Assembly (NCBI RefSeq): GCF_001662305.1
Contig: NZ_BDEP01000011.1
Coordinates: forward strand, 1-64,000
Direction of reading: 5' to 3'
Source: Halomonas caseinilytica
Lineage (GTDB): Bacteria; Pseudomonadota; Gammaproteobacteria; Pseudomonadales; Halomonadaceae
DNA length: 64,000 bases
This document shows positions 12,024 through 52,504 of this stretch, one piece after another. Each line of letters begins with the position of its first letter. Positions within the stretch are counted from its first letter, which is position 1. Both the position numbers and the translations under genes were made by a program. The notes beneath the pieces are model-generated. The model was not told the origin of the DNA and searched no databases. It saw nothing but the letters and a program-made list of their open reading frames with translations.

Positions 12024-14051
12024 TTGGCCACGACAGCCTCAGGAACCCTTGCCGTCGCGACCCGGCGCATGCTCGCTCTGCCGACGCTGCGCGCCTGCCT
12101 GCCCGAATTCCAGCGGCTTTGCCACCTTGGCTCGCCGAGTGCACGCCATGCCGGCGCGGTGGCCGGATGGGGCCTCAAGCCAAGTTCGCGCAAGGCCCGC
12201 GAGCATGCCAGCCGCCACCGGCTACCCTATGTGGCCATCGAGGACGGTTTTCTTCGTTCATGGGGGCTCGGTGTCGAGGGCTACCCGCCCCACAGTCTTG
12301 TCGTCGACGCCCTCGGCATCTATTACGACGCTACCCGCCCCTCGACGCTGGAGAACCTGATCCTGGCTGGCGATGCCCTGTCCGAGGCGGAGCTGGCCCG
12401 AGCCAGGCGAGGCATTCAGCGGCTGCGCGACCTGCGCCTTTCCAAGTACAACCATGCGCCGGACCGTCGCCTGTTCGAGGATGACCGCCCTCGCGTGCTG
12501 GTCGTCGACCAGACAGCCGGCGACGCCTCCATCGCCGGGGGCCTGGCCGAAGCCGACGACTTCGAGCGCATGCTGGATATCGCCCAGGCGGAACACCCCG
12601 AGTCGGAAATCCTGGTCAAGGTCCATCCCGACGTCATCGCCGGCAAGAAACAAGGGCACCTTCTGGAAGCCGGCAATCGGCCGGGCTGTCGCCTCATCGG
12701 CGAGCCCTTGAATCCCTGGTCGCTGCTCGATGCCGTGCATTGCGTGCATGTAGTCAGCAGCCAGATGGGCTTTGAGGCCTTGATGGCCGGCAAGCACGTT
12801 GTCTGCCATGGCGTGCCCTTCTATGCCGGCTGGGGACTCACCGATGATCGCCGACACTGCTCGCGTCGCGGCACCCAGCGCTCGCTGGAACAGCTCTTCG
12901 CGGCGGCCTATCTGCGCTATGCGCGCTATGCCAACCCCTATACCAGCCAGGCCACCGACTTCGAAGAAGCCCTGGAACTGATCGGCGACCAGGCACGCCA
13001 GCAGCATCGCTTGTCGGGGCGTTGGGTCACCTATGGCCTCTCGTCATGGAAACGCGGTTTCGTCGGCGACTTCCTCGGAGATCGCGCCGACGTCCGCCAC
13101 CTGCGCCACGATCGTCCTCCGGAAGACGCCTCGCGCGACGAGCGAATCCTGTGCTGGGCCTCACGGCTGGACGCCGCCGCCGAGGAGCGTTGCCGTGCCC
13201 GGGGTCACACCCTCTGGCGCATGGAAGACGGCTTTCTGCGCTCCATCGGTCTGGGCGTCGACCTGGCGCGCCCACTCTCCCTGGTCCTGGATCCACTCGG
13301 CATCCACTACGACGCCAACCGCCAGAGCGAGCTGGAGCGTCTGCTCAACGAGACGACCTTCTCGCCCGCCCTGTTGCAACGAGCCGCCCGACTGCGCGAA
13401 CGGCTGGTCGCTCTGCGCCTCTCCAAGTACAACGTCCCCGGCGCCCGACACCTACAGCGCCCCGAAGGCCGTCGCCTGCTACTGGTACCGGGGCAGGTGG
13501 AGAGCGACGCCTCCATTGCCCACGGAACGTTCGACATTCGCACCAACAGCGCCCTGCTCGCCGCCGTGCGCCAGGCCAATCCCGATGCCCACATCCTCTA
13601 CAAGCCACATCCCGATGTGGTCACCGGCGCACGCCTCGGTGCCTTGAGTCGGGACGACGAGCGCCTGTATGACCTCGAGGTCGGCGATGTCGATATCGTC
13701 GATTTGCTGGACATGGTCGACGAGGTCCATACCATGTCCTCCCTGGCGGGATTCGAAGCGTTGCTGCGGGGACGACGCGTCGTCACCTACGGAATGCCGT
13801 TCTACGCAGGCTGGGGACTGACCGAGGACCGCCATACCTGCGCCAGGCGTCGTCGAGCGCTCGACCTGGACGCTCTGGTCGCGGCCACCCTGATCCTCTA
13901 CCCGTTGTATGTCGACCCAGGCAGTCGCCGGCTCTGTAACGCCGAAACCGTCGTGGCCCTGCTGGAACAGCGCCGAGCCGAACACCCTCGCCCGGCGTGG
14001 CGAACGCACCTGTATCGCTGGTACCGCAATATCTTTATCGGAAGGCATTGA
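12024..14051 (+). CDS. kpsC: Capsular polysaccharide Kdo transferase KpsC
   Basis: KpsC is the dual-module retaining beta-Kdo transferase (GT99 plus GT107) that extends the poly-Kdo linker of ABC-exporter capsules. The two halves of this 675-residue protein are visibly homologous: IEDGFLRSWGLGV and MEDGFLRSIGLGV, VKVHPDVIAGKK and YKPHPDVVTGAR, GVPFYAGWGLTDD and GMPFYAGWGLTED, at about 70-330 and 390-640. Its length equals that of E. coli KpsC. The start is TTG at 12024 with AAGGA 9 bases before; an ATG 15 codons later is an alternative. It leads a six-gene operon and is not accompanied by kpsM, T, E or D here. Confidence 0.9.
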   Translation: MATTASGTLAVATRRMLALPTLRACLPEFQRLCHLGSPSARHAGAVAGWGLKPSSRKAREHASRHRLPYVAIEDGFLRSWGLGVEGYPPHSLVVDALGIYYDATRPSTLENLILAGDALSEAELARARRGIQRLRDLRLSKYNHAPDRRLFEDDRPRVLVVDQTAGDASIAGGLAEADDFERMLDIAQAEHPESEILVKVHPDVIAGKKQGHLLEAGNRPGCRLIGEPLNPWSLLDAVHCVHVVSSQMGFEALMAGKHVVCHGVPFYAGWGLTDDRRHCSRRGTQRSLEQLFAAAYLRYARYANPYTSQATDFEEALELIGDQARQQHRLSGRWVTYGLSSWKRGFVGDFLGDRADVRHLRHDRPPEDASRDERILCWASRLDAAAEERCRARGHTLWRMEDGFLRSIGLGVDLARPLSLVLDPLGIHYDANRQSELERLLNETTFSPALLQRAARLRERLVALRLSKYNVPGARHLQRPEGRRLLLVPGQVESDASIAHGTFDIRTNSALLAAVRQANPDAHILYKPHPDVVTGARLGALSRDDERLYDLEVGDVDIVDLLDMVDEVHTMSSLAGFEALLRGRRVVTYGMPFYAGWGLTEDRHTCARRRRALDLDALVAATLILYPLYVDPGSRRLCNAETVVALLEQRRAEHPRPAWRTHLYRWYRNIFIGRH

Positions 14052-14052
14052 C

Positions 14053-15291
14053 GTGAATTCGCCGAAACGCTCTTTCTTGTTCCTGCAGGGTGTCTGTTCG
14101 CCTTTCTTCCCTCGCCTGGCAAAGCGGCTGAGGGCCGATGGCCATCATGTCGCCAAGGTCCAGTTCGCCGGTGGCGACGTCGCCTACTGGTCACGCCATG
14201 CCGGCCCGAGCCACGCCTTTCGCGGCAGGCCGAGCGATTTGCCGGACTTCCTGGCAGGACTCTGGGAACGATACGCCGTCACCGACCAGTTGCTGTTCGG
14301 CGACCAGCGCCCCGTGCACCTGGCTGCCGCCGAGGCGGCCAGGCAAGTGGGCATTCGCAACCATGTGCTCGAAGAGGGCTACTTTCGCCCCCACTGGATC
14401 ACCCTGGAGCGCGAGGGGGTCAACGGCTATTCGCTGCTACCGCAGGACGCGAGCTGGTACCTCGAGGTCGGCCGCCGCCTGCCCAAGCCGGCACCGGTCA
14501 AGCGCTTCCAGACCTCCTTCAAGCGACGCGCCACCCACGACGTGCTCTACCACCTGGCCGGCCTCGCCAACCCGGTGCTGTTCCCGCGCTATCGCAACCA
14601 CGCACCGGTCACCGCGCCGATCGAATATGCCGGCTATCTCAAGCGCTTCACCCAGCTACGCTGGTGGAAGCCCCGCGATGCCGAACGCATCCGCGCCCTG
14701 ACCGAGGGCAAGCGGCCCTACTTCGTACTGCCCTTGCAGCTCAATGGCGACGCCCAGATTCGCAATCACTCGAGCTTCGCCGACATGCCGGAAGTGATCG
14801 AGTACGTCATGGCCTCCTTCGCCCGCCATGCATCGGCGGACAGCCTGCTGTGCATCAAGAACCACCCGCTGGACATGGGCCTCATCAACTACGCTGGACT
14901 CATCGAGCGCCTCGAGAAGCGCTACGACATCGTCGGGCGTACCGTCTATCTCGAGTCCGGCGATCTCAACGTCCTGTTCAAGGCCGCCACCGGTATCGTG
15001 ACGGTGAACAGCACCTCGGGTATCGTAGCGTTGGAGCACCGTTGTCCGACCATCGCCCTGAGCCGACCGATCTATCGGCTCGACGGCCTGACGTTCGAAG
15101 GGGGGCTGGACGAGTTCTGGCGCCAGGGCACGCCGCCGGACGAGGAACTGTTCCGCTGCTTTCATCGCACGGTCATGCATACCGTTCAGCTCAACGGAGG
15201 CTACTACTGCGACACCGGGATCGAACTGGCCGTCGACAATGTCGCGGCCAGGCTCGAAGCCGCCATCTCACCGCTCGAGGCCTTGCTATGA
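14053..15291 (+). CDS. kpsS: Capsular polysaccharide Kdo transferase KpsS
   Basis: KpsS adds the first Kdo to the lipid acceptor (lyso-phosphatidylglycerol in the classical group 2 capsule), after which KpsC continues. The 412-residue protein opens with SFLFLQGVCSPFFPRLAKR and KVQFAGGDVAYW, the usual KpsS N-terminus, and carries HPLDMG and TVNSTSGIVALEHRCPTIAL in the C-terminal half. I place the start at the GTG at 14053, one base after the kpsC stop, because the family N-terminus begins right there; the frame stays open upstream only inside kpsC. Its neighbours suggest the acceptor may be a different lipid (see findings). Confidence 0.88.
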   Translation: MNSPKRSFLFLQGVCSPFFPRLAKRLRADGHHVAKVQFAGGDVAYWSRHAGPSHAFRGRPSDLPDFLAGLWERYAVTDQLLFGDQRPVHLAAAEAARQVGIRNHVLEEGYFRPHWITLEREGVNGYSLLPQDASWYLEVGRRLPKPAPVKRFQTSFKRRATHDVLYHLAGLANPVLFPRYRNHAPVTAPIEYAGYLKRFTQLRWWKPRDAERIRALTEGKRPYFVLPLQLNGDAQIRNHSSFADMPEVIEYVMASFARHASADSLLCIKNHPLDMGLINYAGLIERLEKRYDIVGRTVYLESGDLNVLFKAATGIVTVNSTSGIVALEHRCPTIALSRPIYRLDGLTFEGGLDEFWRQGTPPDEELFRCFHRTVMHTVQLNGGYYCDTGIELAVDNVAARLEAAISPLEALL

Positions 15292-16052
15292 CCGCACCCC
15301 GCAGCCTGTTGATCACCGGCGCCACCGGCGCCATCGGCAGCGCCCTGGCCCGACATTACGCGGCGCCCGATACCCATCTGATCCTGCATGGGCGCGACCT
15401 GGAGCGTCTCGATGCCGTGGCCGACGCCTGTCGCCAGGCGGGCGCCGATGTCGAGACAAGCCGCGTGGACCTGACCGATGACGCCGCCCTCACCGAATGG
15501 CTGGAACATCTGACACTGCCCGACATCGTCATCGCCAACGCCGGTCAGAACCTCCATGCCGAACCGGGATGCGAGATGGAAGACTGGGAGGCCACCAGCC
15601 GCCTGCTGGCCATCAACCTGCGCACGCCCATGGCCATGGCCGAGCGCCTGGCACCGCGCATGGCCGAGCGTGGCCACGGCCAGATCGTCTTCCTCAGCTC
15701 CCTGGCTGCCTGGCACGGTCTGCCCGTGACCCCCAGCTACAGCGCCAGCAAGGCCGGCATCAAGGCCTATGGCGAGGCCCTGCGCGGCTGGCTGGCACCA
15801 CGCGGCGTGGGGGTGACCGTGGTCATGCCCGGCTATGTCAGTTCGCCGATGTGCGAGGCCATGCCCGGCCCCAAGCCCTGGGAGATCGACGCCCCGCGCG
15901 CGGCCCGCCGCATCGCCAGGGGCATCGAGCGCAACCGGGCACGCGTGAGTTTTCCCTTCCCGCTCAACCTGGGGTGCTGGAGCCTGGCAGTGCTGCCGGC
16001 AGGCCTGTCCCAGCGTCTGCTCGGTGTGATGGGTTACGGGAGGCCTTCATGA
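15288..16052 (+). CDS. Short-chain dehydrogenase/reductase
   Basis: This classical SDR of 254 residues has TGATGAIG (coenzyme site, about 8-15), the NAG motif (IVIANAGQ) and the catalytic SYSASKA with Tyr and Lys four residues apart; a preceding Ser lies in VFLSSLAAW. The glycine pattern is compatible with NADP(H). The start overlaps the kpsS stop (ATGA). A hydrophobic C-terminal tail (LGCWSLAVLPAG) resembles membrane-associated SDRs such as 3-ketosphinganine reductases. With an alpha-oxoamine synthase in the same operon, reduction of a 3-keto aminolipid to the 3-hydroxy form is the most economical role, but this is inference. Confidence 0.85.
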   Translation: MTAPRSLLITGATGAIGSALARHYAAPDTHLILHGRDLERLDAVADACRQAGADVETSRVDLTDDAALTEWLEHLTLPDIVIANAGQNLHAEPGCEMEDWEATSRLLAINLRTPMAMAERLAPRMAERGHGQIVFLSSLAAWHGLPVTPSYSASKAGIKAYGEALRGWLAPRGVGVTVVMPGYVSSPMCEAMPGPKPWEIDAPRAARRIARGIERNRARVSFPFPLNLGCWSLAVLPAGLSQRLLGVMGYGRPS

Positions 16053-17623
16053 CACAGGCGCTGCTCCTGCCCTGGTGCCTGGGCCTGCTCGGCACCTTCA
16101 TCGCCGAAGCCGCGCTACGTCCTCCCACGACAGCCCCCTGGCGCCGTTCCCTGGCTGCCCTGGCCGTCCACCTGGGCACCTGGGGCGTGTTCTACGGGGG
16201 CTTCGTGCTGGTACTGCAACGGCCCTGGTTCGCCCTGGTTCTCTTCCTCGCCCTGCAGCTCGTGGTGGTGCAATCCAGCAATACCAAGTCGAAGACCCTG
16301 CGCGAACCCTTCCTGTGCCAGGACTTCGAGTACTTTCTCGACGCCATCCGCCATCCGCGCCTTTACGTGCCCTTCTTCGGCATCGGCCTGGCGATCGGCG
16401 CCAGCCTGGCGGGGCTGGCCACCATCATCGGCTTTCTGGTCATCGAACCCACGCTGTCCTCCCGCCATAGCGCGGGCGCCTTCCTGTTCGGGACGGTTCT
16501 GATCATCGCGCTGTCGATACTCCCCCTGGTCGCCGGGCTACGTTACCTGCCGGCCTGCCGGCTCGATCCCCTCGACGATACCCGCCGCCTGGGACTGTTC
16601 AGCGCGCTCTGGGCCTACGGCCTGATGGCACGACGCCCGCTTGAGGTATCTGCTTCGCCCTATGCGCCCGTGCCCGAGCCGGTACCGGACACCGCGCGAC
16701 TCCCGCACCTGGTCGTGGTGCAGAGCGAGTCCTTCTTCGACCCGCGCCCCTGGCACGGCGGCCTGCGCGACGATCTGCTGCCCGAGCTCGACGCCCTGAC
16801 CGAGCAGGCCCTGGCCCGGGGCCGTCTTCGCGTGCCGGCCTGGGGCGCCAACACGGTGCGCACCGAAACGGCGGTGCTGACCGGACTCGACCAGGACACG
16901 CTTGGCATTCACCGCTTCAATCCCTATCACCAGCTGGCACGGCGCTCGGTACCCAGTCTGGCGGCCGAGCTGCGACAGCTCGGCTATCGCACGGTCTGCC
17001 TGCATCCCTATGCGGCCAGCTTCTATCAGCGCGACCGGGTCATGCCGCGCCTTGGCTTCGATGACTTCATCGACATTCGAGCCTTCGGGCCCGACGACTA
17101 CTGCGGCCAGTACGTCGGGGACCTGGCACTGGCCGACAAGGTTGGCAGTCTGCTCCATGAAACGGATAATGAGCCGCTATTCGTGTTCGTGATCACCATG
17201 GAGAATCACGGCCCACTGCAATTCGACAACCGGGCGGAGAACGCGGCCCGCGACCTGCTGGCCCCGGGCGCGCCGCCCCTGCCGGACGACTGCGGGGAGC
17301 TGGCCAGCTATCTGGCCCACCTGCGCAATGCCGATCGCATGGCCGGACGCCTGCGCCAGCAACTGGAGGCGATGCCCCGGGCCGGGCTACTGTGCTGGTA
17401 TGGCGACCATGTGCCGATCATGCCCGAGGTCTATCGGCATTATGGCGAGCCGGACGGCGACACGCCCTATCTGTTGTGGTCGAGCCATGGCCGGACAGAC
17501 CGGCCCCAGGCGTCCACGCCACTTGAGGCAGTGCAATTGAGTCAACGGATATGGCAGGCCGTCATCCACGAGGCGCAACGCGCCCATGACGGCTGGAACC
17601 AGGATCATCGGGAGCAAGCATGA
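16049..17623 (+). CDS. LTA-synthase-like sulfatase-fold transferase, membrane bound
   Basis: The 524-residue protein has several hydrophobic segments in the first ~180 residues and a periplasmic alkaline-phosphatase-superfamily domain from ~215. Metal and active-site motifs are VVVQSESFFD (222-231), GANTVRTETAVLTGL (266-280, with Thr272 the likely nucleophile), ENHGPLQF and GDHVPIM. Relatives (LtaS, OpgB) move phosphoglycerol from phosphatidylglycerol, while others move phosphoethanolamine. The ATG overlaps the SDR stop (ATGA) and GGGAGG lies 5 bases before. In this operon it may place a phosphoglycerol head group on a lipid or glycan. Sulfate ester hydrolysis is unlikely, as no Cys/Ser sulfatase motif is present. 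Confidence 0.85.
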   Translation: MTQALLLPWCLGLLGTFIAEAALRPPTTAPWRRSLAALAVHLGTWGVFYGGFVLVLQRPWFALVLFLALQLVVVQSSNTKSKTLREPFLCQDFEYFLDAIRHPRLYVPFFGIGLAIGASLAGLATIIGFLVIEPTLSSRHSAGAFLFGTVLIIALSILPLVAGLRYLPACRLDPLDDTRRLGLFSALWAYGLMARRPLEVSASPYAPVPEPVPDTARLPHLVVVQSESFFDPRPWHGGLRDDLLPELDALTEQALARGRLRVPAWGANTVRTETAVLTGLDQDTLGIHRFNPYHQLARRSVPSLAAELRQLGYRTVCLHPYAASFYQRDRVMPRLGFDDFIDIRAFGPDDYCGQYVGDLALADKVGSLLHETDNEPLFVFVITMENHGPLQFDNRAENAARDLLAPGAPPLPDDCGELASYLAHLRNADRMAGRLRQQLEAMPRAGLLCWYGDHVPIMPEVYRHYGEPDGDTPYLLWSSHGRTDRPQASTPLEAVQLSQRIWQAVIHEAQRAHDGWNQDHREQA

Positions 17624-20600
17624 CAAGACGCGTGGCCATCATCGGTGTCGCCCACCGGATGCCGGGAACCACCCCGGAAGGCTTCTGGCAGGACCTGCGG
17701 GCCGAAAAGGACCTGGTCACCCAGGTAGCGGCCGACCGCTGGAGCCATGAGGTCTTCCAGCACCCCGACAAGCGCAACCCCGGCACCAGCGTGACCTTCG
17801 CGGCCGGCAGCCTGGGAGACATCAGTGGCTTCGACGCCGATTTCTTCGGCATCTCGCCTCGTGAGGCGGCCAACATGGATCCCCAGCAGCGCATGCTCCT
17901 GGAGCTGACCTGGGAGGCCATGGAAAGCGCCGGCGTACCGCCCTCGCAGTTGCGGGGCAGCCAGTGCGGCGTTTTCCTTGGCGTCGCGGCGCTGGACTAT
18001 TCCTATCGATACACTGGCGACATGGGGGCCATCGACGCTTCCACCGCCACCGGCAACACCTCGAGCATCGCCTCGAACCGGCTCTCCTACCTGTTCGACC
18101 TGCACGGCCCCAGCATGTCCGTGGATACCGCCTGCTCCTCGTCGATGGTGGCCTTCCATCAGGCCTGCCAGGCAATTCGCAGCGGCGAGACGAGCATGGC
18201 ACTGGCCGGCGGCATCAGCCTGCACCTGCATCCTTACGGCTTCGTCATCTTCTCCAAGGCCAGCATGCTGTCGCCCACAGGCCGCTGCCGGGTGTTCGAT
18301 GCCGACGGCGACGGCTACGTGCGTTCGGAAGGCGCCGGCATGTTCCTGCTCAAGGAACACGACCAGGCCCTGGCCGACGGCGATACCATCCTGGCCGTGG
18401 TGGCCGGCTCCACCGTCAACACCGACGGCCACAAGCAGGGCCTCACGGTGCCCAACCCCGATGCCCAGATCGCCCTGATGCACCAGGTCTACGAGCAGGC
18501 CGGCATCGATCCCGACGAGATCGACTATCTCGAGGCCCACGGCACCGGCACCGCCGTGGGCGATCCCATCGAGACCCGCGCCATCGGCGAGGCACTGGCC
18601 AAGCGACGCAAGACACCGCTGCCCATCGGCTCAGTGAAGAGCAACCTCGGCCATCTGGAAACCGCCTCCGGCGTCGCCGGTCTGGCCAAGGCGCTCTACA
18701 GCCTGCGCCATCGCGAGGTACCGGCCACCATCGGCATCCGCCGCCCGAATCCCCGGATCGCGTTCGACGACTGGAACCTCGAGGTCGTCACCCAGGCCCG
18801 CGCACTGAAGCCGGAGGGTCGCCTGGTCATCGGCGTCAACTCCTTCGGCTTCGGCGGCGCCAACGCCCATGTCATCCTCGAGAGTCCGCCCGAGGCACCG
18901 GCGCCGCTCACGCCGCCCGCCTCCAGTGAGCCGCTGCCGCTGCGACTCTCGGCGCGGGGCGAGCCGGCCCTGCGGACCATGGCCGGCCAACTGGCCGACT
19001 GGTTGCGCGATACCGACAGCTCCCTCTACGACATCGCCGATACCCTCTATCGCCGTCGCGAGCATCATGCCGACGGCGCCCTGCTGTTCGCCACCGACAA
19101 GCAGGACGCCGCCGAGCGCCTGGCGGCCTTCGCCGATCCCGAGCGGGACCCGGGCAAGCGGCCGGTGATCCGCGGCCGGCGTCTCGAGGCCGCCCAGGGA
19201 CCCGCCTTCATCTACGACGGCAACGGCTGCCAGTGGGAAACCATGGGCCGCGACCTGCTTGCCGACTCCAAGGTCTTCGCCGCCGCCATCGACGAGGTCG
19301 ACGCGCTCTTCCAGCGTCACGCCGACTTCTCGCTGCGTGCCGAACTCAGGGGCGACAACGGCAGCGAGCGCTTCGTGCGCACCGAGATCGCCCAGCCGGC
19401 GCTGTTCGCCGTGCAGGTCGGCATCACCCGGATGTTCGCCGCCCAGGGCATCGAGCCCATTGCCGTCACCGGCCACAGCGTCGGTGAGGTGGCCGCCGCC
19501 TGGGCCTGCGGCGCCCTGTCGCTGGAAGACGCCGTACGCGTGATCTACCTGCGCAGCCACTTCCAGGGACTGACCCGCGGGCAAGGCGAAATGACCGCCG
19601 TGGGCCTCGGCGCCGAAGCCATTGCCACCTATCTGGAACGTCCCGAATATCGCGACGTCCATCTCGCCGGCACCAACAGTGCCCAGGGCGTGACCCTGGC
19701 CGGCCCTGCCGAGGCCTTGACCCGGCTGGAAGCCGAACTCGCCGCCCAGCGTCACTTCGCCAAGCGCCTGCCGCTGGACTACGCCTTCCACAGCCCGGCC
19801 ATGGACCCCATCCGCGACGACCTGATCGCCGCTCTGAAAGGCCTTCGCCCCCGGCAATCGCGCATTCCCTACATCTCGACGGTGACCGGCGAGGAGCTCG
19901 ACGGCGAGCGACTCGATGCCGAGTACTGGTGGAACAACATTCGCCAGCCCGTGCGCTTCGACGCCGCCGCTCGGGCGATCATTGCCGACGGCACCAATGT
20001 ATTGATCGAGATCGGGGCCCACCCGATCCTCAAGCGCTACCTGAGCGAAGCGCTGCGCGAGGCGGAGCTCGATGGCCTGATCATCGGCACCCTGGAGCGC
20101 GACCTGCCCGGCCCCGTCTGCCTCGATCGCGCCATCGGCCAGACGCTGCTCTCGGGACTCGCCACCGACACCGACCACTGGTTCCCGGTGACCGGGCAGC
20201 TCGCCGAGCTGCCACGTTATCCCTGGCAACGCCAGTCCTACACGATGCCGAGCACTTCGGACGCCCTGGGGCTGCTGGCACGCCACTACGAACACCCCTT
20301 GCTGGGCTACCGCCTGGCACAGCACACCCTGACCTGGGAAAGCCAGCTCGATACCGGTCGCCAGCCCTGGCTGGCGGACCACGTGGTGGGCAACGCCGCC
20401 ATCTTCCCGGGCGCCGGCTTCATCGAATTGGCCCTGGCCGCCGCTGCCAGCTGGCGCGAGGCGACGCCACTCGACGTCGAGGAACTCGAGATCCAGGCGC
20501 CCCTGATGCTCGATGGGCCGCACGGCCGGCTCACCCGGCTGGCCATCGCCCCCGACGACGGCCGCGTCACCATCCACTCGCGGGAACCGGCCGTCGGCGA

Positions 20601-23600
20601 GGAATGGCAGTTACATGCCACGGCCCGCATCATGAGCCAGAGCCGCGGCCTGATGCTCGAGCGAGTCGCCCCGGCACTCCCCGAGCGGGCACCGGACCTG
20701 GAGCTGAACGAGCACCTGGCGATGGCCAGCCGACTGGGCCTGGACTATGGTCCAGCCTTTCAGGCCATCGACCGCGCCTGGATCGAGGACGACGGCGTCA
20801 TCGGCCAGGTGCACCTCACACCCGAGATCGAAGCACAACTCGCGCTGCAGCACCTGCATCCCGGCATCCTCGACAGCGCCTTCCAGCTGTTCCTGCCGTT
20901 GCTGGCCCGCGAGGGGCACGATACGCGAGGCATGGCCTATGTGCCGGTCCGTGTCGGGCGCATCCAGTGGACGCCGGAGGCCGGACACCCAAGCCTGGCG
21001 CGTGCCCGCCTGCTCAAGCGCGCCCCCTATTCCTTCACCGCCGACTTCGAGCTCTTCGACGCACAGGGCCGGGCCGTTGCCGTGGTCAGCGAGACCCGCT
21101 TCAAGGCAGTCCGCTTGACCCAGTCAGCCGAGCAGACGCTGAGCCATCTCGACGTGCGCCTGACACCGGCGCCACGCCCCGCAAACCGTCAGCCGGCGGA
21201 CCTCTCCGCGCTCGAGGCCGCCATGCCCGGGCTGGTCGATGGCTATGCCGAGGCCACCGGACAGCGCTATGCCAGCGAAGTAGCGCCCTTGCTCGACCGG
21301 CTGGCCGAGGCCTTCGCCGCCGAGACCCTCGACGCCGAACTGAGCGATGGCGTCCTTAGCCAGGACCGCTACCAGGCCCTGGCCAGCACGCACCCGCAGG
21401 CCCGCCCGCTGCTCGACCAGTTGCTGCGCCTGCTGGAGGACGCCGGCCGGCTCGAGCGCCACGGCGATGGCTGGAAGCGCATCGAAAGCGACGACGAGGT
21501 CGACGCCACTACCATCTGGCGCCTGCTGGCCCAGGATTATCCAGGTCACATCGGCCCCATTCACCGGCTCGGGCGTTTCGGGCTCAACCTGCGCGACCTG
21601 CTGGCAGGCCATCGCGACGCCACCGACATCGGCCTCGACAGCGACCGCCTGACGCGCCTCAATCGCCAGTTGATCGGTCACGAGGGCTGGCGCGCCATCA
21701 CCTCGCCGCTCGGCGATGCCCTGGCCGATACCCTGGCGCACCTGCCTGAAGGGCAACGCCTGACCTTGCTCGAGGCCGGCGTCAGCGCCCCGGCACTGGG
21801 TGAGCGCCTCGCCGAGCTGGTCGATCCCGATCGCTGCGACTACCACATCCTCACCGCCGGCGAGCTCGCCTGGCAGCATGCCGAGCAGTTGCGCGAGCGT
21901 CAGCCGCTGATCGAGGTCGAAGCGCTGGAAGCGCCGTGCGAGCGGTTGCCACAGGATGGCCCGGGCAAGGCCCAGTTGGCCCTGGTATCGCTGGATGTCA
22001 CCAACCGTGACCTCAGCCACCGCCTGATCGAGTCCCTTCCCGAGCGCCTGGCACCCGATGCCCGCATGCTGCTGCTTGGCGTCGCCCCCTCCGCCTGGCT
22101 CGACACCCTGCTGGCCTCGCCGGGACTGACCGGTGACGGCACGACGCCCTCGGCCTGCGAGCCCGACGACGTCACCGAGCAGCTGGCCGCTCTCGGCGCC
22201 AAGGATGTTCTCTCGATGCCGCTGGAAGACGAGGCCGGCGCCTATCTCATTGCCGCCCGCCTGCCCGGCGAGATCGTGGAGACCGAGACACCGCCGACCG
22301 ACTACCTGCTGATCGCCGATGATGAACATCGCGCGCTTGCCGAACGCCTCGCCGCCGACCTGGAACGCCGAGGCCATCGCGCGGCTGTCGGCGATACCAG
22401 CGAGGCCGACATGGCCCAACAGATCGTCGACCTGCGCAGCACCGGGCTGGAGCGCTGTCAGCAGGCGGTACGCTGGGCATCCGCGTTCGAGTCCCGCCAC
22501 GACATGCCGACGCTATGGCTGCTCACACGGGACGTGGCCGATCTCTGGCGCGATGCCTCGGCCTCGCCGGCAAGCGCGAACCTCAGCGACGACGCCGCCC
22601 TCTGGGGCTTCGGACGCTCCCTGGCCAACGAGGCCCAGAGCTTCCAGGTGCGCCTGCTCGACCTGCCCGGCGGCGAGTTGGAAACGCACGCCTTCCAGGC
22701 ACTGGGAGACGAGCTCGTCGCCCCCGATGACGAGACCGAAGTGGTCATCGACGCCAGAGGAACCCGCTTCGCCACCCGGCTGCGTATCCTGCCCGCGCCG
22801 GGCACGGCAACGGATGCGCCAGCACCCCCGCGCAGCGCCATGACACTCGGCTTCCCGCTGCCCGGCCAGTTGCGCCACCTGGCCTGGCAGCCGACCGACC
22901 TACCGGAACCCGGCGAGGGCGAAGTGGAGGTTCGCGTCGAGGCCACCGGTCTCAACTTCCGTGACGTCATGTATACCCTGGGCCTGCTCTCCGACGAAGC
23001 CATCGAGAACGGCTTCGCCGGCCCGACGCTGGGGCTGGAGTTCTCCGGGGTCGTCGAGCGGCTCGGGCCTGGCGTCGAAGGAGTCGCACCGGGCGACGCC
23101 GTGGTCGGGTTCGGTCCGGCCAGTTTCAGTGACCGATTGATCGCCAGCCACCACGCCATTGCGCCCTTGCCTACCGGTATCGATTTCGCCGCGGCGGCGA
23201 CGATCCCGACGACCTTCTTTACCGTTTACTATGCGCTGAAGCATCTCGCCCGCCTCTCTCCCGGCGAACACGTGCTGATCCATGGCGCCGCGGGCGGCGT
23301 CGGGCTGGCCGCTATTCAGGTGGCACGCTGGCTCGGTGCCGAGATCCACGCCACCGTGGGCGCCGAAGAGAAAGGCGACTTCCTCCGCCTGAGCGGCATC
23401 GAGCGTCTCTACGACTCGCGCTCGCTGACCTTCGCCGAGGAAATTCTCGCCGATACCCACGGGCGCGGCGTCGACGTGGTCCTCAACTCCCTGGCCGGCG
23501 AGGCAATCAACCAGAACCTGCGCGTACTGCGCCCCTTCGGTCGCTTCCTGGAACTCGGCAAGCGCGACTTCTACGAGAACACCCATATCGGCCTGCGGCC

Positions 23601-25062
23601 CTTCCGCAACAACCTCAGCTACTTCGGCATCGACTCCGATCAGCTGATGAAGGCGTGCCCGGACCTCACCCAGACGCTGTTCGGCGAAATGATGGCGCTG
23701 TTCGAGGACGGCACCTTCACGCCGCTGCCCTACACCGCCTTCAGCAATCGCCAGGTGGTCGAGGCCTTCCGCTACATGCAGCAGGCACGCCAGATCGGCA
23801 AGGTGGTGGTGACCCAGGACCAGCCCCTGAGCCCCGCCCCCGACAACACCACGACCTCGGCCGCCCCCGAGCTGCCGGCCGAGGCCACCTACCTGGTCAC
23901 CGGCGGCCTCGGCGGCTTCGGCCTGCGCAGCGCCCAGTGGCTCGCCGAACGTGGCGCCCGCCATCTGGTCCTGGTCGGCCGGCGCGGTGCGGCCTCACCC
24001 GAGGCTGCCGAGGGTATCGCCGCCCTCGAGGCCAAGGGCGTGTCCGTGGAAGCCGCAGCCTGCGATGTCGCCGACCGCGAGGCCCTGGCTGCGCTGCTCG
24101 AACGCTGCCGTGCCGAACACCCGCCGCTGAAGGGCATCATCCATGCCGCCGCAGTGATCGAGGACGGCCTGATCCGCAACCTCGATGACGAGCGCATCGC
24201 CCGCGTGCTGGTGCCGAAGATCGAAGGCGCTCGCCACCTGGATGCCCTGACCCGGGACGATGACCTGGATTTCTTCGTGCTCTATTCCTCGGCGACCACC
24301 CTGTTCGGCAATCCCGGGCAGGCCAGCTACGTGGCGGCCAACCACTGGCTCGAGGCCCTGGCCGCCAACCGTCGCGCCAGGGGATTGCCAGCCACCTGCG
24401 TGCGCTGGGGCGCCATCGAGGACGCCGGCTTCCTGGCCCGCAACACCCGAACCCGCGATGCCCTGCAGGAACGCCTCGGGGGCTCGGCATTGCGCGCCGA
24501 CGACGCCCTCGAGGTCCTCGGCCGCATGCTGGCCGCCCCTGGCCCGAGCCTTGGCGTGCTGGAACTGGACTGGTCGGCCCTGGCGCGCTCGCTGCCCACC
24601 GCCGAGACACCACGTTTCTCCGAGATCGCCCGCTCCGCCGGCGACGAGGGACAACAGGACGATGGCGATCAGGACCTGAGCCGCCTGCTGGCCGAACTGT
24701 CCCCCGAGGAACTCCATGCCACGATCACCGACCTGCTCAAGGCAGAGCTCGCCAGCATCCTGCTGGTGGAGGAAGACAAGATCGACGTGCATCGTTCGGT
24801 CTATGACATGGGCTTCGACTCGCTGATGGGCGTGGAATTGATGACCGCCATCGAGTCGCGCCTCGGCGTCCGCGTGCCAGTCATGGTGCTCAGCGAGGCC
24901 TCGACCCTCGACAAACTCAGCGGCGTGCTGATCGACCGCCTGACGCGCGGCGATACCGATGACGACGATGACGACGCCGAGCTGGCCTCGCTGGCGGCAC
25001 GCCACGGTGCCGATGCCGAGACCCTTGCCGACGCCCCTTCGGAGGAGACGACCACCCGATGA
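17620..25062 (+). CDS. Iterative, highly reducing type I polyketide synthase
   Basis: One 2480-residue module in the order KS (1-425; Cys172, His307, His345), AT (~525-840; GHSVGE with Ser620, His724), DH (~890-1165; HVVGNAAIFP with His921, Asp1085 in HPGILDSAF), a degenerate methyltransferase region (~1190-1550), ER (~1745-2065; HGAAGGVGLAA), KR (~2085-2275; TGGLGGFG, Tyr2237, Asn2241) and ACP (~2360-2440; GFDS with Ser2401). No thioesterase or reductase ends the protein, so release must be done in trans. With every reductive domain intact, the product should be a saturated, fatty-acid-like chain. The MT region reads LTLLEAGVSAPALGE, lacking the SAM-binding glycine pattern, so it is probably structural. 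The gene overlaps both neighbours by ATGA. Confidence 0.93.
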   Translation: MTRRVAIIGVAHRMPGTTPEGFWQDLRAEKDLVTQVAADRWSHEVFQHPDKRNPGTSVTFAAGSLGDISGFDADFFGISPREAANMDPQQRMLLELTWEAMESAGVPPSQLRGSQCGVFLGVAALDYSYRYTGDMGAIDASTATGNTSSIASNRLSYLFDLHGPSMSVDTACSSSMVAFHQACQAIRSGETSMALAGGISLHLHPYGFVIFSKASMLSPTGRCRVFDADGDGYVRSEGAGMFLLKEHDQALADGDTILAVVAGSTVNTDGHKQGLTVPNPDAQIALMHQVYEQAGIDPDEIDYLEAHGTGTAVGDPIETRAIGEALAKRRKTPLPIGSVKSNLGHLETASGVAGLAKALYSLRHREVPATIGIRRPNPRIAFDDWNLEVVTQARALKPEGRLVIGVNSFGFGGANAHVILESPPEAPAPLTPPASSEPLPLRLSARGEPALRTMAGQLADWLRDTDSSLYDIADTLYRRREHHADGALLFATDKQDAAERLAAFADPERDPGKRPVIRGRRLEAAQGPAFIYDGNGCQWETMGRDLLADSKVFAAAIDEVDALFQRHADFSLRAELRGDNGSERFVRTEIAQPALFAVQVGITRMFAAQGIEPIAVTGHSVGEVAAAWACGALSLEDAVRVIYLRSHFQGLTRGQGEMTAVGLGAEAIATYLERPEYRDVHLAGTNSAQGVTLAGPAEALTRLEAELAAQRHFAKRLPLDYAFHSPAMDPIRDDLIAALKGLRPRQSRIPYISTVTGEELDGERLDAEYWWNNIRQPVRFDAAARAIIADGTNVLIEIGAHPILKRYLSEALREAELDGLIIGTLERDLPGPVCLDRAIGQTLLSGLATDTDHWFPVTGQLAELPRYPWQRQSYTMPSTSDALGLLARHYEHPLLGYRLAQHTLTWESQLDTGRQPWLADHVVGNAAIFPGAGFIELALAAAASWREATPLDVEELEIQAPLMLDGPHGRLTRLAIAPDDGRVTIHSREPAVGEEWQLHATARIMSQSRGLMLERVAPALPERAPDLELNEHLAMASRLGLDYGPAFQAIDRAWIEDDGVIGQVHLTPEIEAQLALQHLHPGILDSAFQLFLPLLAREGHDTRGMAYVPVRVGRIQWTPEAGHPSLARARLLKRAPYSFTADFELFDAQGRAVAVVSETRFKAVRLTQSAEQTLSHLDVRLTPAPRPANRQPADLSALEAAMPGLVDGYAEATGQRYASEVAPLLDRLAEAFAAETLDAELSDGVLSQDRYQALASTHPQARPLLDQLLRLLEDAGRLERHGDGWKRIESDDEVDATTIWRLLAQDYPGHIGPIHRLGRFGLNLRDLLAGHRDATDIGLDSDRLTRLNRQLIGHEGWRAITSPLGDALADTLAHLPEGQRLTLLEAGVSAPALGERLAELVDPDRCDYHILTAGELAWQHAEQLRERQPLIEVEALEAPCERLPQDGPGKAQLALVSLDVTNRDLSHRLIESLPERLAPDARMLLLGVAPSAWLDTLLASPGLTGDGTTPSACEPDDVTEQLAALGAKDVLSMPLEDEAGAYLIAARLPGEIVETETPPTDYLLIADDEHRALAERLAADLERRGHRAAVGDTSEADMAQQIVDLRSTGLERCQQAVRWASAFESRHDMPTLWLLTRDVADLWRDASASPASANLSDDAALWGFGRSLANEAQSFQVRLLDLPGGELETHAFQALGDELVAPDDETEVVIDARGTRFATRLRILPAPGTATDAPAPPRSAMTLGFPLPGQLRHLAWQPTDLPEPGEGEVEVRVEATGLNFRDVMYTLGLLSDEAIENGFAGPTLGLEFSGVVERLGPGVEGVAPGDAVVGFGPASFSDRLIASHHAIAPLPTGIDFAAAATIPTTFFTVYYALKHLARLSPGEHVLIHGAAGGVGLAAIQVARWLGAEIHATVGAEEKGDFLRLSGIERLYDSRSLTFAEEILADTHGRGVDVVLNSLAGEAINQNLRVLRPFGRFLELGKRDFYENTHIGLRPFRNNLSYFGIDSDQLMKACPDLTQTLFGEMMALFEDGTFTPLPYTAFSNRQVVEAFRYMQQARQIGKVVVTQDQPLSPAPDNTTTSAAPELPAEATYLVTGGLGGFGLRSAQWLAERGARHLVLVGRRGAASPEAAEGIAALEAKGVSVEAAACDVADREALAALLERCRAEHPPLKGIIHAAAVIEDGLIRNLDDERIARVLVPKIEGARHLDALTRDDDLDFFVLYSSATTLFGNPGQASYVAANHWLEALAANRRARGLPATCVRWGAIEDAGFLARNTRTRDALQERLGGSALRADDALEVLGRMLAAPGPSLGVLELDWSALARSLPTAETPRFSEIARSAGDEGQQDDGDQDLSRLLAELSPEELHATITDLLKAELASILLVEEDKIDVHRSVYDMGFDSLMGVELMTAIESRLGVRVPVMVLSEASTLDKLSGVLIDRLTRGDTDDDDDDAELASLAARHGADAETLADAPSEETTTR

Positions 25063-26387
25063 GCCAGGATGCGTCACGCCACGATCTCAAGCGCCAACTT
25101 CTCGAGGGAGCGCGCAAGCGCAAGCGTTCGCGCCCTGCGCCGGAACACGGCGAGGCATCCGGGACGTCCGCCGGCGAAGTGCCGGAACGGCTGACCCGCT
25201 TCGATGCCCACCCCGGCTATCAGCAGTTGACCATGATGCGCGAGGCGGCACGCCGCCTCGGCCTGACGGATCCCTTTTTCCGCTGCCATCAAGGCAACGC
25301 CGGCGCCACCAGCCGCATCGACGACCGGGACGTCATCAACTTCGCCAGCTACAACTACCTGGGCTTCTCCGGCGATCCTCGCGTCAACCAGGCCGCCATC
25401 GACGCCGTGCAGCACTATGGCAGCTCGGTGTCGGCCAGCCGCATCGTCTCCGGTGAGCGCCCCATTCACGGCGAGCTCGAGCGCGCCATCGCCGATACCT
25501 ACCAGGTCGACGATGCCGTGGTGTTCGTCAGCGGCCACGCCACCAACGTCTCCACCCTGGGCTACCTGCTGGGGCCGGGAGATCTTATCCTCCACGATGA
25601 ATACATCCACAACAGCGCGCTGGTCGGCGCCCAGCTCTCCGGCGCCCGGCGGATGGGCTTCGCGCACAACGACGCCGATGCCCTGGAAGATCTCCTGCAC
25701 CGCCACCGTCCCCAGTTCGAGCGCGTCGTGATCGTCATCGAGGGGCTCTACAGCATGGACGGCGACCTGCCCGACCTGCCCCGATTCGTCGAGATCAAGC
25801 GCCGTCACCAGGCCTGGCTGATGGTCGACGAGGCGCATTCCTTCGGCGTGCTGGGCCGGAACGGCCGCGGCCTGCGCGAGCACTTCGACGTGCCGCCCGA
25901 GGCCGTGGACATCTGGATGGGCACCATGAGCAAGACGCTGGCCGGTTGTGGCGGCTACATCGCCGGTTGCCAAGCCCTGGTGGATACCCTGCGCCACCTG
26001 GCACCGGGGTTTCTCTACAGCGTCGGCATGCCCGCCCAGGTCGCGGCCCCGTCGCTCAAGGCGCTGGCGCTGATGCATGAGGAACCGCAGCGCGTCCGCC
26101 GCCTTCAAGCCATCTCGCGCTATTTCCTGGAACAGGCCCGCGCTCTCGGACTGGACACCGGCGAGAGCATCGGCGCCGCCGTCGTGCCGGTGATCATCGG
26201 CAGTTCGGCCCGCGCCGCCGGTCTTTCCCACGCCCTGTTCGAACGCGGCATCAATGTCCAGCCGATCCTGCACCCCGCCGTGCCCGAAAAGAGCGCGCGC
26301 CTGCGCTTCTTCCTCTCCTGCGAGCACACCGAACAGCAGGTCGACCAAACCCTCGAGATTCTCGATGAGGAACTGACGCGAACCTAG
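25059..26387 (+). CDS. PLP-dependent alpha-oxoamine synthase (serine palmitoyltransferase/AONS-like)
   Basis: This 442-residue enzyme belongs to the fold-type I family (SPT, AONS, KBL, ALAS) that condenses an acyl thioester with an amino acid under decarboxylation. Residues seen: SGHATNVSTLGYL, DEAHSFGVLGRNGRG with Asp257 binding the PLP nitrogen, and the PLP lysine Lys292 in GTMSKTLAGCGGY. The SKTLAG-GGY context is closer to SPT-like enzymes than to BioF, and no bio genes are near. A basic ~45-residue N-terminal extension may dock on the PKS ACP. Its start overlaps the PKS stop (ATGA), so I infer that it offloads the polyketide chain as an aminoketone. Confidence 0.88.
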   Translation: MSQDASRHDLKRQLLEGARKRKRSRPAPEHGEASGTSAGEVPERLTRFDAHPGYQQLTMMREAARRLGLTDPFFRCHQGNAGATSRIDDRDVINFASYNYLGFSGDPRVNQAAIDAVQHYGSSVSASRIVSGERPIHGELERAIADTYQVDDAVVFVSGHATNVSTLGYLLGPGDLILHDEYIHNSALVGAQLSGARRMGFAHNDADALEDLLHRHRPQFERVVIVIEGLYSMDGDLPDLPRFVEIKRRHQAWLMVDEAHSFGVLGRNGRGLREHFDVPPEAVDIWMGTMSKTLAGCGGYIAGCQALVDTLRHLAPGFLYSVGMPAQVAAPSLKALALMHEEPQRVRRLQAISRYFLEQARALGLDTGESIGAAVVPVIIGSSARAAGLSHALFERGINVQPILHPAVPEKSARLRFFLSCEHTEQQVDQTLEILDEELTRT

Positions 26388-26408
26388 GCAGCGCCAGATC
26401 GTCAGTTG

Positions 26409-26440
26409 ACAAGGCCCGGCTCACGCCGGGCCTTGTCGTT
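26409..26440 (+). terminator. Terminator of the kpsC-PKS operon
   Basis: A 12-bp perfect stem (ACAAGGCCCGGC with GCCGGGCCTTGT) and a 4-base loop (TCAC) lie 22 bases after the alpha-oxoamine synthase stop. The T-tract is short (CGTT), but the stem is strong. Confidence 0.75.
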
Positions 26441-26597
26441 GCATGCACGCAAGTCCGTTCATCGATTTCCAGGGCATGCGTGACTGTCATACCCCCATGC
26501 AGACCCTTCGCTGTCATCCCCAAGGTGCGGGCCGTTAAGGTATCCAGCCATGCGCCGGAGACATTCCGGTGACAACACAATAAGTGGAGAGATGCCC

Positions 26598-35381: not shown

Positions 35382-36404
35382 TTACCGTTGCCAGGCATCC
35401 TTGCCCTCGACACGATGCCAGGACGCCTTCACACCCCGAGCGGCAGCCCGCTCATCCTCACGGCGACGCATTCGTTGCAGCACACGATACTGCAGCCGAT
35501 TCAGGCTTTCGAAGCCCAGTCCCGGCAAGGGAATAAAGGGATTGGTACGACTCATGCCCCACAGTGCCAAACGCGATGTCCCCGGCTGCGCATGGCCTCG
35601 GGCATGCACCCCGAACGTATTGGCGATCAGCAAAGTATTGCCCGGCACCTGGAAGCTCTGCGGTGGCTTATCGCCCAACCGCGCCGCCGCTTCCGGCTCG
35701 ACACGGAACGAGCCTCGCGCGGTATAGCGGTCGGCATGCTCTCGCGCTTCCTGGCTCATGCGGTATTCCCAGGAAAGACGCTCGCGACTCAAGCGATTCG
35801 ACCCGGGCACAAAGACGAAGGGCCCATTGAGATCCGACACGTCCTCCAGATAGAGCCAGAACTTCATGGTTGGCTGGAAGGTATCGACATGCAGGTTGGT
35901 CTGCGGGTCCGGTGGCGCCTCACTGACGCCGTTCATCACCTGCTCTGCGTGACAGATCGGCATGCGCAGATGACCGGCACAGAAGCGCATCAAGCGGCGA
36001 AAGGCCGGATCCTGCATCAAGGCGCGTGTTCGCGGCATGGCCTCGAGCACTTCCGGGGCGAGCAGCATGCGGCGGGTCCGGGCATCCCCCTGGATACACT
36101 GGCGCACTTCGCCCCGCCCTTGCCGCACTTCCTCGACCAGGGCGTGATACTCGTCTTCCGGCAAGTAATTCCGTTTGAGCACGAACCCCTGCTCGATGAA
36201 CTGCCGACGATCCTCCCGTGGCACCCGCCATCCCAGCATCGCCATGCGCAGGCGCATCACCCCATGGGCCAGCGCGACACGGCCGACATGCAGCCCCCAC
36301 CGGTTCAGCCGACGGCTACCGATCAGCGGATTGGCCACGAACGACTTGGTGCCGGTAAACAGCTCCACCATCCACCATGGCATTCGAGTGATTCGCTTGA
36401 ACAT
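35382..36404 (-). CDS. PhyH-like 2-oxoglutarate/Fe(II) dioxygenase
   Basis: The 340-residue protein shows the phytanoyl-CoA dioxygenase facial triad: His172 and Asp174 in NLHVDTFQP and a distal His267 in GVHARGHA, with Arg278 positioned to hold 2-oxoglutarate. A double-stranded beta-helix spans about 70-290. Members hydroxylate acyl chains, amino acids or sugars. The start at 36404 has AAGGA 8 bases upstream. It sits 11 bases after a glycosyltransferase in the polysaccharide locus, so modification of a sugar, a lipid or an attached group is likely. No signal peptide; the first 50 residues are basic and amphipathic. Confidence 0.75.
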   Translation of the reverse strand: MFKRITRMPWWMVELFTGTKSFVANPLIGSRRLNRWGLHVGRVALAHGVMRLRMAMLGWRVPREDRRQFIEQGFVLKRNYLPEDEYHALVEEVRQGRGEVRQCIQGDARTRRMLLAPEVLEAMPRTRALMQDPAFRRLMRFCAGHLRMPICHAEQVMNGVSEAPPDPQTNLHVDTFQPTMKFWLYLEDVSDLNGPFVFVPGSNRLSRERLSWEYRMSQEAREHADRYTARGSFRVEPEAAARLGDKPPQSFQVPGNTLLIANTFGVHARGHAQPGTSRLALWGMSRTNPFIPLPGLGFESLNRLQYRVLQRMRRREDERAAARGVKASWHRVEGKDAWQR

Positions 36405-36415
36405 AGGTTTATTCC

Positions 36416-37444: not shown

Positions 37445-37498
37445 CGGCGGCCCCGTCTTCCACCACTCCCCTCTTCTCTGCCCACTCTCACCTGCCCC

Positions 37499-39805: not shown

Positions 39806-39824
39806 TCAGAGTGCCTAAAAGATT

Positions 39825-41201: not shown

Positions 41202-41815
41202 GAGTCTTGATCTTCATTTTCATATTTTTTCGTGGCATTAGAGCGAGGCATTTCCAAATCATTGAACTGATGGATATCTGAAAGAAAATCAGATATCCTT
41301 TCGGGAGAATCTTTTTCTATATTATAAACCAAAAGCTCATTAGGTTTATCCTGAAAAAACCTTAGTACGTTAGCATGGTGTTGATAGAAGTCGATCTTCC
41401 AGATCTCTTTGATTCTCTCGCTGTTATTTATACCATAATGATATTTATACCAGTCTAAGCACCTTCCATTTGAATGCGAAGCTCTACTCCTGACCCACTT
41501 ATCCACATCTCTAGTATTCAGAATAAATTTTGAGCCAGGATTCCATCGATAAATTTCCCTATAGAACTTATACGCCTCTACAAGAGGGAACTCACGTGAA
41601 TTGACACACTCCATATCTAAAAAGCATCGATATTTTTCATACCCCTCTATAGGATTCTTAAACTGCCTGACGTTTCGCTCTATATTAACAGCAAGATTTC
41701 CTCCATCATAATGAAGAGACTTCAATCCATTTTTATTAAAAAAGTAATTCAAACTGCTTGTCCCGCACTTATTAAACCCTATAACAAAAACCTTTCGATT
41801 ACTTGAGTCATACAT
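41198..41815 (-). CDS. Sulfotransferase, short form
   Basis: This compact 205-residue protein shows VFVIGFNKCGTSSLNYFF as phosphosulfate loop and KFILNTRDVDKWVRSRASHS as the 3'-phosphate site, in the correct order and spacing (~95 residues). The start at 41815 has AAGGAG 7 bases upstream. It ends overlapping the start of the longer sulfotransferase gene (ATGA-type), so the two are made together. Similar short family members are known in bacteria modifying glycans or lipids; the acceptor here is unknown. Base composition is AT-rich. Confidence 0.78.
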   Translation of the reverse strand: MYDSSNRKVFVIGFNKCGTSSLNYFFNKNGLKSLHYDGGNLAVNIERNVRQFKNPIEGYEKYRCFLDMECVNSREFPLVEAYKFYREIYRWNPGSKFILNTRDVDKWVRSRASHSNGRCLDWYKYHYGINNSERIKEIWKIDFYQHHANVLRFFQDKPNELLVYNIEKDSPERISDFLSDIHQFNDLEMPRSNATKKYENEDQDS

Positions 41816-41845
41816 AAATCAACTCCTTAAACTTTACCAGAAATA

Positions 41846-42832: not shown

Positions 42833-42836
42833 AAAA

Positions 42837-43883: not shown

Positions 43884-43904
43884 TGGGCACCATAAAAATC
43901 TTCT

Positions 43905-47778: not shown

Positions 47779-47790
47779 ACCCATTCCCGA

Positions 47791-48834: not shown

Positions 48835-48865
48835 ATCATCCCTGCTATATGAAATTCATGGTCAA

Positions 48866-49414: not shown

Positions 49415-49454
49415 AGGGTCCAATACACTCTGATGTTGAAAGAACAGGACGCCT

Positions 49455-52436: not shown

Positions 52437-52504
52437 CATATGCAATAAATGCCGTAAAGAGTGAATGACGTACCGGGCAGCGAAGCCCTGCACTTACCAG
52501 GTAA

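Follow-up and report, generated by a model that had tools for sequence, protein, structure and literature searches.

A wcb/rkp-1-type capsule lipid operon in Halomonas caseinilytica and its predicted sphingoid-like anchor for a Kdo-primed capsule

A capsule operon that carries its own polyketide synthase (PKS) and alpha-oxoamine synthase (AOS) raises the question of which lipid holds the capsule at the membrane, and whether it differs from the usual (lyso)phosphatidylglycerol ((lyso)PG). We address this question for a stretch of 64,000 nt of Halomonas caseinilytica (contig NZ_BDEP01000011.1, hereafter the window, to which all coordinates refer), where positions 12024-26387 of the plus strand hold six co-directional genes in the order KpsC-KpsS-short-chain dehydrogenase/reductase (SDR)-LtaS-like-type I PKS/fatty acid synthase (FAS)-AOS. 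We judge the chances to be slightly better than even that this wcb/rkp-1 capsule lipid operon makes a sphingoid-like anchor for a capsule primed with 3-deoxy-D-manno-oct-2-ulosonic acid (Kdo), the lipid structure and the acceptor being predictions from sequence. The operon consists of the following features.

12024..14051, + strand: kpsC, KpsC-like dual-domain beta-Kdo transferase (PF05159, 295 bits, two stretches)
14053..15291, + strand: kpsS, KpsS-like Kdo transferase of clade A, a tree group described below (PF05159, 268 bits, one stretch)
15288..16052, + strand: SDR in the WcbP position, assigned from the syntenic SDR in relatives
16049..17623, + strand: LtaS/LtaP/GacH-like membrane phosphoglycerol transferase (WcbQ / RkpI; PF00884)
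17620..25062, + strand: type I PKS of 2480 amino acids, KS-AT-DH-ER-KR-ACP by Pfam, active-site motifs present
25059..26387, + strand: pyridoxal phosphate (PLP)-dependent AOS (WcbT / RkpG; PF00155)
26385..26460, + strand: hairpin region after the last operon gene, possible terminator

A KpsS clade that goes with two kinds of synthase

The evidence that carries this reading comes from a phylum survey of 398 Pseudomonadota genomes, in which the four best first-look candidates per genome were scored, so that absences are soft. We counted KpsS in 58 genomes, WcbT-type AOS in 24, the LtaS-like protein in 40 (15 above 280 bits) and canonical serine palmitoyltransferase (SPT) in 35. Of the 58 rows in a KpsS tree, 38 form a single group, clade A (support 99/96; 91/83 in a smaller tree), and each of the 38 stems from a genome or record that also has WcbT or SPT, while the 20 rows outside it include one genome with SPT (G139) and one with a PKS-less AOS relative of WcbT (G104). 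The clade A rows derive from the phylum survey (17), from a second sample (3) and from loci in which WcbT or SPT had been seen beforehand (18, namely five plasmid records, three window relatives and ten named genomes of Sphingomonadales/Acetobacteraceae type); these 18 preselected rows show where such KpsS proteins fall, and not how frequently the rule applies.

Within the phylum survey, WcbT or SPT is present in 17/17 clade A genomes and in 2/41 of the other KpsS genomes (Fisher, P = 9e-13). Eighteen of these 41 genomes were placed by the tree and 23 by score alone (at most 347.9 bits, the lowest clade A score being 428.7), which is an imperfect guide to the clade, as G069 falls outside clade A at 438 bits; two long branches (G057 and G041) meet in the KpsS tree, and their placement is unsure. 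Three clade A genomes without WcbT (G339, G363 and G353), chosen by KpsS/LtaS score alone, all carry SPT above its curated cut-off. Among the 43 KpsS genomes without WcbT, SPT occurs in 3/3 with an LtaS-like score above 280 bits versus 1/40 without (Fisher, P = 0.0003); G339 and G363 are of one family, so the SPT-only cases are not fully independent. Similarly, WcbT or SPT is found in 15/15 genomes with an LtaS-like match above 280 bits and in 2/25 with one below (AOS in G078, SPT in G045). The second sample (190 genomes from the same class as G065, partly overlapping the first, only new KpsS genomes being counted) adds five KpsS genomes, three of which fall in clade A and carry WcbT (G507, G634 and G540, the last two with SPT beside it), and two of which fall outside and carry neither (G620 and G592). 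By these trees and profiles, KpsS clade A goes with sphingoid-base synthases of two separate clades, and the sphingoid type of lipid proposed in the earlier note on this DNA is newly supported by this comparison, with WcbT or SPT accompanying the clade.

The window KpsS scores 269.4 bits against the KpsS equivalog model NF050054, below the cut-off of 600, and 10/10 other KpsS proteins compared likewise fall short of it (192-392 bits). We also observe two adjacent KpsS-like genes in G298 and G301 (L073 13022-15758; L158 114-2952), both genomes being without an LtaS-like match.

Conservation and cluster type

An AOS at least 72% identical to that of the window is present in 7/24 congener genomes searched, with the other 17 giving matches of at most 40% or none at that threshold, and the same six genes stand in the same order in 7/7 AOS-bearing congeners. 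The six-gene grouping in congeners is not due to chance. The expectation that the six genes stay together holds to this extent; elsewhere they often share one neighbourhood in reshuffled order, with some missing. In a Sinorhizobium meliloti record labelled pSymB (CP090106.1), PKS, AOS, SDR, an unannotated LtaS-like frame and KpsS follow one another consecutively, which we take to be rkpA-G-H-I-J, the match of letters to genes being presumed. Compared with the window, the AOS is 48.8% identical, the SDR is divergent (127 bits), the gene order differs, and the 27 kb examined contain a KpsS counterpart and no KpsC. Further variants of the cluster are seen in Paraburkholderia, Caballeronia, a Pseudomonas plasmid, Shinella and Acidisoma. 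The wcb-type cluster of Paraburkholderia reads KpsS-SDR-LtaS-PKS-LpxC-like-AOS-GNAT, with an LpxC-like deacetylase and a GNAT protein that are absent from the window operon. Across the phylum survey, PKS adjoins or is fused to AOS at 20/25 other AOS places.

PKS, AOS and LtaS-like genes are not known to be part of the Escherichia coli group 2/3 capsule system. The window shares with that system the KpsC and KpsS Kdo transferases and, elsewhere in its genome, an ABC exporter set; the E. coli anchor is given in the literature as (lyso)PG, whereas the window KpsS belongs to clade A.

The window locus has PKS next to AOS, an SDR and an LtaS-like gene, and KpsC/KpsS, and by this gene content it is a "capsule lipid carrier" cluster of the already known wcb/rkp-1 type. 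The names rkp-1 and rkpABCDEFGHIJ come from the literature, which credits rkp-1 with the synthesis of a specific lipid carrier. In Cobetia marina KMM 1449 and other Cobetia, wcbPQRT are named lipid carrier biosynthesis genes beside kpsSC, with WcbQ annotated as LTA-synthase-like (PMC11766843, 2025), and WcbQ and WcbR have been reported in a Halomonas (PMC10752968). Cobetia and the window share the gene set (kpsSC with wcbP-Q-R-T downstream), and their genomes share a capsule region with rhamnose genes, glycosyltransferases, a sulfotransferase, genes for 3'-phosphoadenosine-5'-phosphosulfate and kpsETMD, but kpsSC and wcb are treated as separate operons in Cobetia, whereas they form one six-gene run in the window (PMC11766843). 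Neither the gene set nor the notion of a lipid dedicated to the capsule is therefore new, and the lipid chemistry is left open in the literature at hand, with the Cobetia paper giving it just as "probably fatty acids" (PMC11766843). The view of the earlier note that a Kdo-primed capsule has its own lipid here is supported, and its claim of a new type of anchor does not stand for a region already termed one of lipid-carrier synthesis. Its further claim that the anchor is made without the normal phospholipid pathway is countered by phosphatidylglycerol being given as the donor for WcbQ (PMC11766843). The swf clusters of sponge symbionts were considered as a counterpart and rejected; the source paper itself sets swf apart from rkp/wcb.

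The lipid-building enzymes

The PKS comprises the following domains, and no GxSxG motif was seen downstream of its acyl carrier domain.

17626..19056, + strand: ketosynthase domain with C-terminal extension (PF00109, PF02801, PF16197; motifs DTACSSS, HGTGT, KSNLGH)
19207..20157, + strand: acyltransferase domain (PF00698; motifs GHSVGE, YAFH)
20293..21114, + strand: dehydratase domain (PF21089, PF14765; motifs HVVGNAAIFP, LDSAF)
22912..23811, + strand: enoyl reductase domain (PF08240, PF00107, PF13602; motif LIHGAAGGVG)
23884..24420, + strand: ketoreductase domain (PF08659; motifs GGLGGFG, YVAAN)
24733..24924, + strand: acyl carrier domain (PF00550; motif GFDSL)

The structure model of the AOS is nearest to SPT 3a2b (Z 51.9, root mean square deviation 1.8, 392 aligned residues), with KBL at 49.2, and the best 50 chains listed all belong to the AOS family (Z 42.7-51.9). 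Columns of the PLP site, GTxSK among them, are invariant in 17 aligned AOS rows, and the best NCBIfam model is bioF (340.8 bits, below its cut-off). The SDR matches 209 NCBIfam models, none at its cut-off among the 25 listed, and is presumed to be a 3-keto reductase. A profile survey gave no match to canonical SPT in the window genome.

Several AOS arrangements seen elsewhere differ from that of the window. An Acidisoma plasmid (L093 12025-22007) and G381 (L085) have a PKS-less WcbT-type AOS with an SDR, accompanied on the plasmid by a hydroxylase, KpsS, KpsC and an LtaS-like gene. G381 shares its family code with the SPT-bearing G353 and gave no SPT match, so that WcbT may replace SPT there. 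Plasmid proteins of Planktothrix (L090 3605-11203) and Streptomyces (L091 6335-11158) are single chains that run from PKS to a C-terminal AOS, and the 21 kb examined held no Kps genes. G049 has two separate PKS-AOS pairs (L079, L080) and no KpsS match, and G360 has both LtaS-like and WcbT genes, with no KpsS found, nor in about 18 kb upstream.

The LtaS-like enzyme

The structure model of the LtaS-like protein best matches GacH (Z 24.0), LtaP (22.1) and LtaS (20.9), followed by the first sulfatase-titled entry at 18.4 and EptC at 17.5, and the modelled fold is closer to phosphoglycerol transferases than to sulfatases. Full-length EptA aligns with residues 3-509 (424 residues, Z 16.6, root mean square deviation 5.8). 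The closest solved sequences are GacH and LtaP 4uop, a lipoteichoic acid (LTA) primase and the top PDB match. E, T, D-H and H motifs are invariant in 14/14 aligned relatives, S. meliloti included; T257, E215, D441 and H442 (alignment numbering) are among the invariant residues, and we assume their catalytic role from LtaS. Despite the likeness to LtaP, GacH and LtaS in fold and catalytic-type motifs, the window protein stands in a Gram-negative capsule locus, and it scores 25.2 bits against the LtaS equivalog model NF053595, short of the cut-off of 970. Five hydrophobic segments precede the catalytic domain, and the loop charges are not decisive for orientation. Where a locus showed no LtaS-like gene, a substitute was sought among 10 open reading frames (ORFs) from five genomes; none was consistent, PhyH, a formyltransferase and others being seen.

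A proposed pathway

In the pathway that we propose, the PKS/FAS would build a saturated chain on its own acyl carrier domain and, having no thioesterase, would hand it to WcbT. WcbT would join the chain to an amino acid, whether Ser, Ala or Gly, and so form a 3-keto-2-amino long-chain base, the ketone of which the SDR would reduce, and the resulting sphingoid-like lipid, possibly N-acylated or hydroxylated through accessory genes of the kind seen in relatives, would become the membrane end of the Kdo-primed capsule built by KpsS and KpsC and exported by a KpsE-T-M-D-like set on another contig (C4). The LtaS-like enzyme, which would act in the periplasm, may make the phosphoglycerol link in either of two ways. 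It may form a phosphoglycerol-sphingoid acceptor that is then flipped back, or it may exchange the anchor after export, taking phosphoglycerol-Kdo-glycan off phosphatidylglycerol and placing it on the sphingoid, in which case no flip-back of the lipid is needed. The KpsS-LtaS pair of Sphingomonadales and Acetobacteraceae would instead use the ordinary sphingoid base of the cell, made by SPT, which would render PKS and AOS unnecessary there.

Extending this, we tentatively suggest, as a possibility somewhat short of even, that Kdo-primed capsules include a second, widely distributed class held on a ceramide-like sphingoid lipid with phosphoglycerol, marked by KpsS clade A, fed by SPT or by a private PKS and WcbT, and with the LtaS-like enzyme swapping the anchor in the periplasm. 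If true, the rule of one universal capsule anchor would be revised and bacterial sphingoid bases would gain a new job; the KpsS clade and the two sphingoid-type synthases offer a sharp and testable alternative, a sphingolipid-anchored capsule, for numerous symbiotic and environmental bacteria. A sphingoid capsule anchor was not stated in any paper found in the open-licence PMC literature, from which its absence from print does not follow, and a 2025 review on capsule attachment has no match for rkp, Sinorhizobium or lyso-PG.

Evidence against and alternative explanations

Several observations weigh against a sphingoid-like anchor. The window AOS resembles canonical bacterial SPT in fold and in the PLP lysine region, but not in clade and score: it reaches none of three SPT models (297.6, 279.9 and 205.1 bits against cut-offs of 640, 500 and 670), and 24 WcbT-type rows form one group in the tree (support 100), apart from seven SPT rows (100). 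Filing WcbT as an SPT is rejected by the tree and the curated cut-offs; since WcbT stands apart in both, its substrate is not readable from kinship, and serine is a candidate only. The co-occurrence has its own limits. Because wcb loci supplied the KpsS profile, the agreement with WcbT is partly built in, and the correlation was scored by genome, with the SPT-only cases confined to few lineages (families f91 and f63, and the named Sphingomonadales/Acetobacteraceae). Lineages of this kind often have SPT in any case, and we observe it in several f63 and many f58 genomes of the phylum survey. In addition, KpsS gave no match in 9/24 AOS-positive genomes (G049, G078, G193, G205, G223, G227, G358, G360 and G381), which, together with the PKS-AOS fusions, indicates that PKS-AOS pairs are not tied to capsules. 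The LtaS-like protein was not found in 3/17 clade A genomes of the phylum survey (G298, G203 and G301), and none was found near KpsS in G507 and G540. Its active site is probably periplasmic, judging by the fold, as it is in related families. KpsS and KpsC are described at the cytoplasmic side, so an order in which phosphoglycerol is added before Kdo needs a flip or is wrong; the earlier note's proposal that the LtaS-like enzyme adds the head group ahead of KpsS/KpsC is weakened by this and by the three clade A genomes in which it was not found.

Alternatively, the anchor might be the usual (lyso)PG, with PKS, AOS and SDR making a separate aminolipid or factor for capsule export or display. 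Mutants of rkp-1 reportedly accumulate an intracellular high-mass polymer, which would agree with this, as does the description of rkp-1 as required for poly-Kdo secretion. The capsule of S. meliloti 1021, an rkp-1 strain, is titled in reference lists as having a "phospholipid anchor", the title leaving unsaid whether the backbone is glycerol, and a 2024 paper terms the PG-Kdo anchor highly conserved across all species. Such a division of labour leaves unexplained why one clade of KpsS, the enzyme that touches the acceptor, tracks two separate clades of sphingoid-type synthase, and we regard it as unlikely. The LtaS-like enzyme for its part might decorate the glycan with phosphoglycerol and have no part in the anchor, a fairly unlikely option: GacH, its best structural match, decorates a polysaccharide, yet an LTA primase is its top PDB sequence match, and it lies near KpsS in many lineages, presumably with differing glycans. 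The Cobetia marina capsule bears Man6PGro, and its authors tie WcbQ to glycerol transfer onto the chain (PMC11766843).

It is also conceivable, if quite unlikely, that the PKS/AOS product still anchors the capsule but stays a 3-keto-amino or otherwise tailored non-sphingoid lipid, made for instance from glycine or alanine. The separation of WcbT from SPT, bioF as its top NCBIfam model and the weak match of the S. meliloti SDR (RkpH, 127 bits) to that of the window are in line with this, whereas the interchange of WcbT with canonical SPT across the KpsS clade weighs against it. A secondary-metabolite cluster that merely lies next to capsule genes, finally, appears very improbable. The AOS-positive genomes without a KpsS match and the fusions in Planktothrix and Streptomyces would suit it, but the operon is a single overlapping run kept in 7/7 AOS-bearing congeners, and the cluster is part of alpha-, beta- and gammaproteobacterial capsule loci, with rkp-1/wcb being known capsule genes; we rejected it on operon structure and conservation beside capsule genes.

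Loci without PKS/AOS and accessory genes

When named genomes were scanned with the LtaS-like family, whose first row is from G353, 559 loci resulted, the best 80 of which are by title from Acetobacteraceae, Sphingomonadales or alphaproteobacterial metagenome-assembled genomes. Both named lineages are known for sphingolipids. As the first row governs the lineage ranking, the scan gives depth in these two lineages, and not breadth. Near the LtaS-like genes of these best 80 loci we found KpsS in 73, KpsC in 62, a fatty-acid-hydroxylase family protein in 64 and an SDR in 57 (E <= 1e-6), whereas the fetched stretches held no AOS and two weak PKS matches; SPT was found in 38/38 genomes examined out of the 80 loci. 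Sphingomonadales loci such as L253 (8330-15651, its hydroxylase belonging to PF04116), L278, L238 and others hold KpsS, LtaS-like, SDR, fatty-acid hydroxylase and KpsC genes together without PKS/AOS.

Other accessory genes accompany the wcb-like loci. An LpxC-like deacetylase gene lies between PKS and AOS in Caballeronia/Paraburkholderia and in G360 (L087 12018-12944; L089 11935-12849; L069), and its substrate is perhaps an N-acylated intermediate. GNAT acyltransferases are seen in Pseudomonas, Paraburkholderia and G360 loci, a PhyH hydroxylase in G036 and Pseudomonas loci, and a formyltransferase in G036, the formyltransferase and PhyH-type dioxygenase genes lying within wcb-like loci (L033 4403-5251 and 6161-7165; L088 14261-15304). 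These families, several of which are amine-acting or lipid-hydroxylating, fit an amino-lipid, which is suggestive only.

Operon boundaries and capsule partner genes

The layout described in the earlier note, with six co-directional genes, four ATGA overlaps, a 1-base gap and a hairpin at 12024-26387, is confirmed by ORFs, sequence letters and folding. The KpsC and KpsS genes are separated by the 1-base gap, and the overlaps lie at the KpsS/SDR, SDR/LtaS, LtaS/PKS and PKS/AOS junctions. The KpsC-like gene starts with TTG in a frame open from 11946, its start position being uncertain, and the KpsS-like gene starts with GTG. A simple scan of 11400-12100, which carries little weight, gave no sigma-70-like promoter. 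The hairpin after the AOS gene folds at -35.5 kcal/mol, compared to -23.6 +/- 3.0 for 200 shuffles (z -4.0; one shuffle was equally good). The scanned neighbours, haem uptake genes to the left and a BCCT transporter to the right, look unrelated to the operon. A further feature lies about 9 kb beyond the BCCT side.

35382..63972, - strand: probable capsule glycan region with glycosyltransferases, RgpF, a sugar dehydratase, a GlmS-like protein and a sulfotransferase

In this minus-strand block (35-64 kb), 7/10 scanned ORFs have a Pfam match, and the sugar dehydratase is a GDP-mannose-dehydratase family protein. The block is a probable partner of the operon that would build the glycan of the same capsule, by analogy with the Cobetia layout, and its gene content points to a capsule that is sulfated and may, like that of Cobetia, contain rhamnose. 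Near the end of another contig of the window genome, C4 (L064 1642-8999), a KpsE-like gene (291 bits, below the cut-off of 437.5) adjoins an ABC ATPase, an ABC-2 permease, a Poly_export/SLBB protein and an APS kinase fusion. Taken as a whole, glycan block and C4 export set, the capsule layout of the window genome agrees with that described for Cobetia.

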